From: Diphasiastrum complanatum
Taxonomy: Eukaryota > Streptophyta > Lycopodiopsida > Lycopodiales > Lycopodiaceae
Direction of reading: 5' to 3'
NCBI GenBank assembly: GCA_029204225.1
Contig: CM055107.1
Span: 13,884,900-13,948,899 of the forward strand
Length of the DNA stretch: 64,000 nucleotides
Positions 48,110 to 49,965 of this stretch are shown piece after piece. The position numbers were made by a program, and so were the translations under genes. The notes under the pieces are model-generated. The model did not search any database. It was not told where the DNA came from and worked only from the letters and a program-made list of their open reading frames with translations. The stretch's first letter is position 1. Every line of letters starts with the position of its first letter.

Positions 48110-48422
48110 TTGGAAAGCCAAGACACCACTCCATCACAAATGAAGGTTGAAAATGTACGAAATGTACAAAGACTATTTTGTCAATTTTTGTCACATGTTA
48201 CAATTCGTCACATATTAGAATTTGTCAATTTTCACTTGAATGACACTGAAAGAATTTGTGCAATTTGCAATTGGATTATTGGACCAATTTCAACCAGAAT
48301 ATGATGAGAGGATACCATGTACATGCACACAATGCAAAGGCCTTAGGATTCGGACAAGGAGGATTGTCAACGATCATATTTGGGCCAATGGAGTGCACAC
48401 AGAGAATCCAAGAGTACGAGAG
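48110..48422 (+). pseudogene. Transposase-associated zinc-finger exon (Transpos_assoc type)
   Basis: From 48240 the frame reads LKEFVQFAIGLLDQFQPEYD, then RIPCTCTQCKGLRIRTRRIV and DHIWANGVHTENP. This is the CxC-x2-C plus His arrangement of the domain that precedes TNP2 transposases (RIPCPCKxCxN...HL...GF). The upstream part is in another frame (48089), so a shift is present. The exon ends at 48422 with donor GTAAAC, phase 0. Confidence 0.65.
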
Positions 48423-48536
48423 GTAAACTCTTTAAAGTGTTTTTTGGAAATGCTTTAATCTTTGACCCTTATGACAATTCAAGTATAGTTTGGCCAATAT
48501 ATATTGAGCGATAGGATGAGTGCCACGATACTTTGA

Positions 48537-48714
48537 AGTTAATCTCTCACTTGCTTCTAAAAGAAAAAATCCAAATAGAATATTTAGATGAAGTTAATCT
48601 CTCACTTGCTTCTAAAAGAAAAAATCCAAATAGAATGATTAGATGAAGTTAATCTCTCACTTGTTTCTAAAAGAAAAAAATCCAAATAGAATGATTAGAT
48701 GTAGTTAATCTTGA
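48537..48714. repeat. Three tandem 60-base units
   Basis: Each unit starts 'gttaatctctcacttg(c/t)ttc' and ends '...ttagatg(a/t)a'. Units are nearly identical, implying recent expansion. Confidence 0.9.
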
Positions 48715-48755
48715 TTTTCATATTCAATGACCCATAATAGACTCATTCACGTCCA

Positions 48756-48907
48756 AGAGAGAGAGAGAGAGAGAGAGAGAGAGAGAGAGAGAGAGAGAGA
48801 GAGAGAGAGAGAGAGAGAGAGAGAGAGAGAGAGAGAGAGAGAGAGAGAGAGAGAGAGAGAGAGAGAGAGAGAGAGAGAGAGAGAGAGAGAGAGAGAGAGA
48901 GAGAGAA
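48756..48907. repeat. (GA)n microsatellite, about 152 bases
   Basis: Uninterrupted AG units inside the inferred intron. Confidence 0.95.
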
Positions 48908-48939
48908 ACTGATACATCTAACATTTTCAACTTTTGCAG

Positions 48940-49965
48940 AAGAAGGACCATAAGTTGGTTTCAAGAAAAAGAGTTGCAAGAGAGATCGAGAATATTATTG
49001 ATAGGATAAATCACATGAATATTGATTTTGGATCATCATTGGCCCTAGATGACGCTCTTGTTGATGATGACCCCTTGCATGATATAATTAGTTCATCAAT
49101 GCCTTGTGAATCAATCCATGTCTCCAAATCTCTAGAACGTTCTTACCACCCAACCACACCTATCCTAGATGTTGCACATGAGTCCTCCACGGTACTCCAT
49201 GTGGATTCCAAAAACTTGACCAGCCCTTTAAAAAAGAGAACACATCTTGGATGTATTATGGCTAGTTTGAAAGATAATTGCAAATTACTACGCAGTGTTG
49301 ATGTGTCAAAAAACATTCTAGGTTCTTTGTCTGACCTTCCTCTTCCACCTAGCTTGCAACCATTAGTAAAAACTTTTGTTAGAAGTAGATATTCGTGTTG
49401 GCCACTCCAATCACCATTACCATTAAATGGAACACCATTTACGTATTGGGGTCGAATGTACATGATCATGCCTAGTGAACACTTTCCTGAGGCTAGTTTG
49501 GGCCTTTTTGCAGTGAGTAGTGTTGAGGTCCCTTTAAATAGTGTTGTGACATTGATGCCATATGCAGGACCTTAATACAATTGGGGTGATTGGCATGCTT
49601 TGTGTCGTCACCAATGGAGGATGCAAGTATATGGCTTGAATTCAAATGCTTGTTCTTTAGAGGAGCAACACATGCAAGGAGGCAACATCTCAAGGGCAAA
49701 TCGTACATACATTGATGGACGTCCAGATGTGCATGGAAACATTGATGCATATATAAATAGTTCCATTGGCAACCCTCTATTGACGAATTGTGATTTTGAA
49801 GAACGCACCAATGGGAAAGAAGGATATTTTACTAGGAATGTAAAGGACACTTATGTAAAGGTCTGTGCCACTAGATCTATCAGGTTTGGGGAGGAATTGT
49901 TCTTCAAGTATAGTTTCAACCGTCCTCTACCCAAATGTTTGCAAAAGACAATAAGTCAAATGTGA
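48940..49965 (+). pseudogene. SET-domain-like protein segment inside the CACTA transposon
   Basis: One frame of 342 codons with a single stop (TAA at 49573). The N-terminal part is basic and coiled (SRKRVAREIENIIDRINHMN), then a linker. The C-terminal half has SET features in order: a GxxGLFA-like entry (EASLGLFAVSSVEVPLNSVV, then MPYAGP), the motif YIDGRPDVHGNIDAYINSSI followed by TNC (compare GN-x-ARFINHSCxPNC), and VKVCATRSIRFGEELFFKYS (compare A-x-RDI-x-GEEL-x-x-DY). The Asn and final Tyr are kept; His-Ser-Cys reads Ser-Ser-Ile. SET domains methylate lysines, usually on histones. Acceptor 'ttgcag' at 48939 joins it in phase 0 to the transposase zinc-finger exon. It could be a captured host gene or a long-standing transposon component. 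Activity cannot be claimed. Confidence 0.65.

Follow-up and report, generated by a model that had tools for sequence, protein, structure and literature searches.

A SET exon lies within a CACTA-superfamily transposon of Diphasiastrum complanatum and recurs between the zinc finger and the TNP2 core in many copies of the element. Because synonymous change is in plain excess in SET between two subfamilies of the element, we conclude that the exon is kept by purifying selection, with a dN/dS that falls among the values for the transposase exons. On balance, it is probably a functional component that an old plant CACTA lineage of high copy number has inherited. Coordinates refer to the window, the whole stretch of 64,000 nucleotides that was analysed.

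Ends, insertion site and gene parts of the element

A search of the window for CACTA repeats at element termini found no ends, and we located the ends via an old copia integrase gene that the element interrupts and whose halves lie on the minus strand. ACC flanks the element at 40143–40145 and 55564–55566 as a 3-bp target site duplication. When the flanks are joined minus one ACC, the integrase halves come to lie in one frame (KHQFTPAYTLEYNG joined to VAERRN); the joined reading, KHQFTPAYTLEYNGVAERRN, is followed by a stop and then by further integrase in the same frame. Since the joined flanks restore one copia integrase reading, we set the ends of the element at 40146–55563. The following features belong to the element as a whole:

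40146–55563, plus strand: CACTA-superfamily element with ends CACAAGAAC...TAGTTGTG (duplication and joined flanks)
40275–41843, no strand assigned: four left subterminal palindromes GCGTGGATNATCCACGC (motif count in the window)
55202–55496, no strand assigned: six right subterminal palindromes (motif count in the window)
40866–41426, minus strand: putative second gene of the element, a frame of 187 aa (relatives in L030, L031 and L035)
43248–47818, minus strand: younger copia retrotransposon with duplication ATTTA, nested in the CACTA element (LTRs and domains)

The termini are of the CAC...GTG type of the CACTA/EnSpm superfamily; the terminal letters are CACAA...TTGTG, so that both ends read CACAA and not exactly CACTA. 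A TNP2-type transposase (PF02992), the 3-bp duplication and subterminal short repeats are further characters of the superfamily found here. The palindrome occurs 11 times in the window, where 0.05 occurrences would be expected: 4 on the left, 6 on the right and 1 outside the element. The original prediction had placed the SET frame inside a CACTA element, and the ends, the 3-bp duplication and the reconstructed empty site bear this out. With plant EnSpm/CACTA elements of the TNP2 type the element shares (i) the TNP2 core, the Transpos_assoc zinc finger and DUF4218 and (ii) the 3-bp target duplication, the CAC...GTG ends and the subterminal repeats, whereas it differs in its CACAA ends and in having a SET exon that separates the zinc finger from TNP2.

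The opposite-strand frame at 40866–41426 matches no Pfam family. The nested copia, whose LTRs are identical at 696 of 701 positions and whose two large frames carry gag, zinc knuckle, Pol_BBD and SH3 domains, was inserted later than the CACTA element, which measures ~10.8 kb without it. Around the SET exon, we distinguish the following parts of the gene:

43107–43166, plus strand: candidate first exon MSSTMSSSSDSDSSHDRNN..., uncertain (by eye)
47863–48024, plus strand: candidate exon KIVVPPRDLEKEKR...DPPH (counterpart in 11 of 20 copies)
48240–48422, plus strand: zinc-finger exon (Transpos_assoc, PF13963) with a conserved donor at 48423
48423–48939, plus strand: putative intron, which contains 55-bp repeats and a run of GA
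48940–49965, plus strand: SET exon (PF00856) with a private stop at 49573–49575 and a conserved end stop at 49963–49965
50214–50263, plus strand: partial repeat of the SET 3′ end, 82% identical (9 of 9 aligned copies)
50289–50767, plus strand: exon ahead of TNP2 (PRE), phase-0 acceptor AG at 50287–50288, frame damaged here
50870–51611, plus strand: TNP2 transposase core with two stops (PF02992, E 9.9e-52 for 51171–51683)
51754–52328, plus strand: rest of TNP2, frameshifted by eye (PF02992, 1.2e-5 for 51754–51990, below cut-off)
52527–52799, plus strand: DUF4218 part of the transposase (PF13960, 3.5e-11)
53512–53838, plus strand: likely last exon (relatives in 10 of 20 copies)

The zinc finger, read as 48240–48458, scores 26.9 bits against PF13963, slightly below the cut-off of 27.7, which is reached by three of five relatives. 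The 50-bp repeat stands just before the TNP2 exon, and eight of its nine differences from the SET 3′ end fall at codon positions 1 and 2. With its SET stop, two TNP2 stops and the TNP2 frameshifts seen by eye, the copy in the window is dead.

Sequence evidence for the SET domain

The frame 48940–49965 is open except for one TAA at 49573–49575. Among 20,000 sequences of equal length and composition simulated under a first-order model, none contained a forward frame with one stop or fewer and one contained a run of at least 212 codons, so that chance does not account for the frame. The profile search that the original prediction proposed for the translation of 48940–49965 gives a match of PF00856 (SET) to 49576–49962 (E 8.5e-6) at 26.6 bits, above the cut-off of 22.4. 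As controls, nine shuffles and the reversed peptide gave no SET match (0 of 10); two of them matched other families weakly, with E 0.041 at best. The 342-codon frame with one stop, read as SET in that prediction, is thus supported by profile, controls and simulations. Its hallmarks held in part: YIDG...YINSS...NC and EELFFKY fall within the part matched by Pfam, whereas GLFA stands ahead of every SET alignment, and the 46-aa GLFA piece matches no Pfam family.

PF00856 alignments begin at profile position 43–46 and leave the N-terminal half of SET unaligned. Among the aligned SET exons, Pfam SET was found in 17 of 17 (E up to 10; best 3.9e-7). SET is the fold of histone methyltransferases, with NHSC as its canonical motif; where NHSC is expected, both subfamilies have NSSI. 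K323 and Y324 are invariant in the 17 aligned SET rows and are kept also in L057, an intact member of the second subfamily; Y324, in EELFIKY, is presumably the catalytic tyrosine near the C-terminal end of SET. YIDG, N, I, YINSSI and TNC are kept across both subfamilies, and L057 also keeps the end EELFIKYSFNRPLP. With the NHSC histidine replaced and the N-terminal half unrecognised, the activity of the domain may be altered or lost.

Sequence and profile searches of solved structures gave no match to the window SET and, for the SET of the second subfamily, three antibody chains only. Single-sequence models, built without relatives, reached mean pLDDT values of 31 and 38, and fold searches with the second gave no match at E 0.001 or better. 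No relative turned up in viral or prokaryote collections, NCBIfam gave no match, and PHROGs gave two weak matches to unknown families (E 0.15 and 0.27).

Copies, second subfamily and selection

We searched the window's genome (1.74 Gb) for SET and scored 150 of 2146 candidates, ranked by protein similarity. All 150 match SET with E 8e-76 or better and, the window itself aside, are 87–93% identical; 32 have a stop within the matched part. The original prediction named, as grounds for dropping it, a SET piece confined to this one copy, a situation at odds with these 150 scored matches. Twenty copies were fetched from the 150 and chosen for long stop-free SET frames, so that the intactness of SET among them is by choice. 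SET was found in 20 of 20, a zinc finger no more than 3 kb upstream in 15 and TNP2a in 18, and two of the five copies without a nearby finger (L016 and L017) have one further upstream. The order ZnF-SETa-SETb-PRE-TNP2a within 10 kb is present in 13 of the 20; the originally suggested search for CACTA copies with the same SET exon between Transpos_assoc and TNP2 thus finds them in the window's genome. The stop at 49573–49575 is private to the window copy, being a sense codon in the 16 other aligned exons.

Six of the 20 copies share the 3′ end TTCTAGTTGTG or one close to it, with differing flanks. Seven further stretches were inspected, comprising L034, L035 and five left flanks from copies whose right end was known, and one of them (L033) yielded a left end whose duplication matches; L017/L033 is thereby a second copy with a matching duplication, AAA, at both ends. 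A candidate left end in L031, near L014, follows directly on ATT, as expected, yet it lies in the opposite orientation and was dropped. L010 and L011, on G000:C13 near 8.63 and 8.90 Mb, are near-identical, oppositely oriented and ~270 kb apart, and represent either a duplicated inverted stretch or an assembly effect.

A search with TNP2 listed 150 of 4830 candidates, and 20 loci were taken from about the first 30, skipping some near-duplicates and loci whose SET was already among the listed SET matches. A SET piece on the same strand lies just upstream at 13 of these 20 loci (700 bases read at each), a low figure because known SET partners were skipped in the sampling. The 700 bases read hold no SET at the other seven, which may be deletions, cases of displaced SET, or SET-less elements.

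An older, damaged relative of the element adjoins copy L023 and spans L034 and the start of L023. In this one copy, ZnF, SET and TNP2 stand in the same order as in the window family, and identities are 53% for ZnF, 37–49% for SETa, 70–77% for SETb, 48–61% for PRE and 65% for TNP2a. When a stop-free part of its SET was used as query, 150 scored of 1693 candidates were 73–100% identical, and those of lowest identity are members of the window family. L057, of which the SET region was read, matches PF00856 with E 7.9e-8 and 33.1 bits. In the L034 copy (L034:7480-8000), SET is preceded by a linker that consists of a Ser/His/Pro/Thr repeat (HIDSIHPTTPH...).

The original prediction had called for dN/dS across copies, and the values differ between and within the subfamilies. 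Between subfamilies dS is ~1 or above, which makes the following dN/dS values rough. Compared with L057, SET of the window family gives 0.140–0.165 (median 0.15) over ~229 codons in 21 of 21 distinct loci, namely the 20 fetched copies and the window, with pN 0.18 and pS 0.64 in the median row; L002, L003, L005, L006 and L008 did not align and stand outside the dN/dS counts. Compared with L034, SETb gives 0.115–0.169 (median 0.14) and TNP2a a median of 0.115, with dS saturated for some rows, while SETa (median 0.30) and PRE (0.58) are less constrained. For DUF4218 and TNP2b, values of 0.21 and 0.26 between subfamilies come from an earlier set of 23 rows (in which L004 equals L009 and L007 equals L010), and the stretches compared, which adjoin the divergent copy on the opposite strand, are probably parts of a different old element. 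Seven of the eight DUF4218 rows are usable, the eighth, L023, being the divergent copy itself, and this row makes the within-family DUF4218 value of 0.40 unusable.

Within the window family, most exons have dN/dS values close to 1 (SETa 0.91, TNP2a 0.85, and SETb 0.67, a value skewed downwards by how the copies were chosen, on which no conclusion rests). Most copies of the family are decaying, as such values would give.

At G000:C1:48587725-50240876, a cluster of partial SET matches extends over 1.7 Mb. It is absent among the matches listed in both CACTA SET searches and is either a further family of SET repeats or a group of tandem genes.

Splice sites, products and possible functions

Donor 48422/48423 and acceptor 48939/48940 are both in phase 0, as originally read, and both sites are conserved: the donor AG/GTAAA is kept in 15 of 15 copies with a nearby zinc finger, and the SET acceptor AG in 16 of 20 fetched copies. 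The next exon has a phase-0 acceptor, TATATAG/GATTCT, before DSSSSFSVGDN and runs into the TNP2 part; from DSSSSFSVGDN the frame is unbroken in 6 of 11 copies (L012, L013, L019, L023, L024 and L028). The zinc-finger donor is thus compatible in phase with the SET acceptor or with that of the next exon. In seven of eight copies the zinc-finger frame has an ATG directly after a stop, and therefore a ZnF-SET protein of ~400 residues is possible. A search of the genome for spliced copies gave no match to either exon junction with up to two mismatches, and none of 40 scored of 1328 candidates spans the ZnF-SET junction.

The SET exon ends in SQM and a stop in seven of seven window-family copies read. 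Across the 17 aligned rows, no valine follows the last SET motif, which leaves no phase-0 GT there; this is limited to the window's family, since in the second subfamily a valine codon (RCVQK) lies close to the end of SET, with a stop a few codons further. Given the conserved SET stop and the lack of a phase-0 donor behind the last motif, SET and TNP2 are probably not joined in one polypeptide in the window's family. The fused product of the original prediction remains plausible for zinc finger and SET, whose splice sites are conserved and in phase 0, and probably does not extend to TNP2, before which the SET exon is closed. A polypeptide with zinc finger, SET and TNP2 together accords with the order of the parts in the DNA, with their common gene and with the RCVQK valine codon, which permits a phase-0 donor; set against the stop in all seven copies and a window family with no GT-starting codon after the last SET motif, it is very unlikely.

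From the splice phases, we infer with modest confidence, a little better than even, one gene with two products that share the zinc finger: (i) a transposase, in which the finger would be spliced to TNP2, and (ii) a protein in which the finger would be spliced to SET, the SET exon serving as an alternative last exon. The transposon may in this way bring its own chromatin-modifying protein. The finger would guide the SET protein to the subterminal palindromes of the element, where it would methylate histone lysines, and this methylation would hold the chromatin of the element open for transcription or transposition. Such a role, drawn by analogy with VANC and TnpA, is tentative. That the lineage encodes, as a spliced alternative to its transposase and with a common finger, a targeted histone methyltransferase that sets the chromatin of its own copies is somewhat doubtful as a complete account. 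As an experimental system, the SET-bearing CACTA lineage would offer (i) a direct test for self-directed histone marking by a plant transposon and (ii) a way to test how alternative splicing splits transposase from chromatin function.

The competing explanations differ in what SET would do for the element. The domain could have lost catalysis and serve the transposition machinery as a module for binding or dimerisation. The missing NHSC histidine and the undetected N-terminal half of SET are consistent with this, but both subfamilies retain the EELFIKY tyrosine and the NSSI..P...NC pattern, and some SET/PR enzymes function without NHSC; we regard a purely structural role as unlikely. Many SET enzymes deposit repressive marks, and the SET product might accordingly repress the element itself, as self-limitation, or neighbouring copies by methylating or compacting chromatin. 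The transposon-encoded chromatin factors described in the available text of PMC10398659 counter silencing, however, and repression appears distinctly unlikely.

The exon could also be a fragment of a host SET gene, captured passively and carried unused in the manner of Pack-CACTA. CACTA elements do take up host DNA, according to the available text of PMC8616336, and the within-family SETa value of 0.91 would fit an unselected passenger. Pack-CACTA elements are non-autonomous and carry an unselected host fragment, whereas here TNP2 is present and the same exon occurs in two subfamilies at a synonymous distance of ~1 or more with SET dN/dS of ~0.15; the copies are also numerous and their splice sites mostly kept. 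Passive capture is thus largely refuted, and we give it a very slim chance. A SET exon inherited as a working part of the lineage remains our preferred reading.

The primate gene SETMAR, likewise a joining of SET and transposase parts, is a single-copy host gene made from a mariner insertion. The parallel with SETMAR drawn originally is apt in that SET and transposase occur together, but it is loose, since SETMAR is an immobile host gene with an acquired transposase, whereas here a transposon carries the SET. In the literature open to search, no CACTA element with a SET domain came to light, and the novelty of this combination is provisional. DNA transposons that encode SET are described for oomycetes, in other superfamilies and hosts: the available text of PMC12730594 reports SET genes in the HarbingerS and MuDR families, and that of PMC4067079 a SET ORF akin to Clr4 in a Phytophthora infestans proto-Helentron. 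The latter is a separate, intronless ORF, unlike the SET exon of a transposase gene found here. Fungal EnSpm and other elements carry TET/JBP (PMC12730594, available text); these EnSpm elements resemble ours as CACTA-type elements with an epigenetic enzyme and differ in their hosts and in the enzyme, a dioxygenase acting on DNA. VANC of Arabidopsis VANDAL, TnpA of maize Spm and MURA are anti-silencing factors (PMC10398659, available text). VANC and TnpA are alike in role to the SET product proposed here, as transposon proteins that remove silencing, but for all three factors the available text of PMC10398659 mentions no SET domain.

Elsewhere in the window, related inverted pieces at 34871–37844 and 61862–63997 flank the nested region, with copia-like sequence at 35151–36239. 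Of the frames scanned, the one that most clearly resembles a host gene is a Kelch-repeat protein frame of 389 aa at 14167–15333 on the minus strand.
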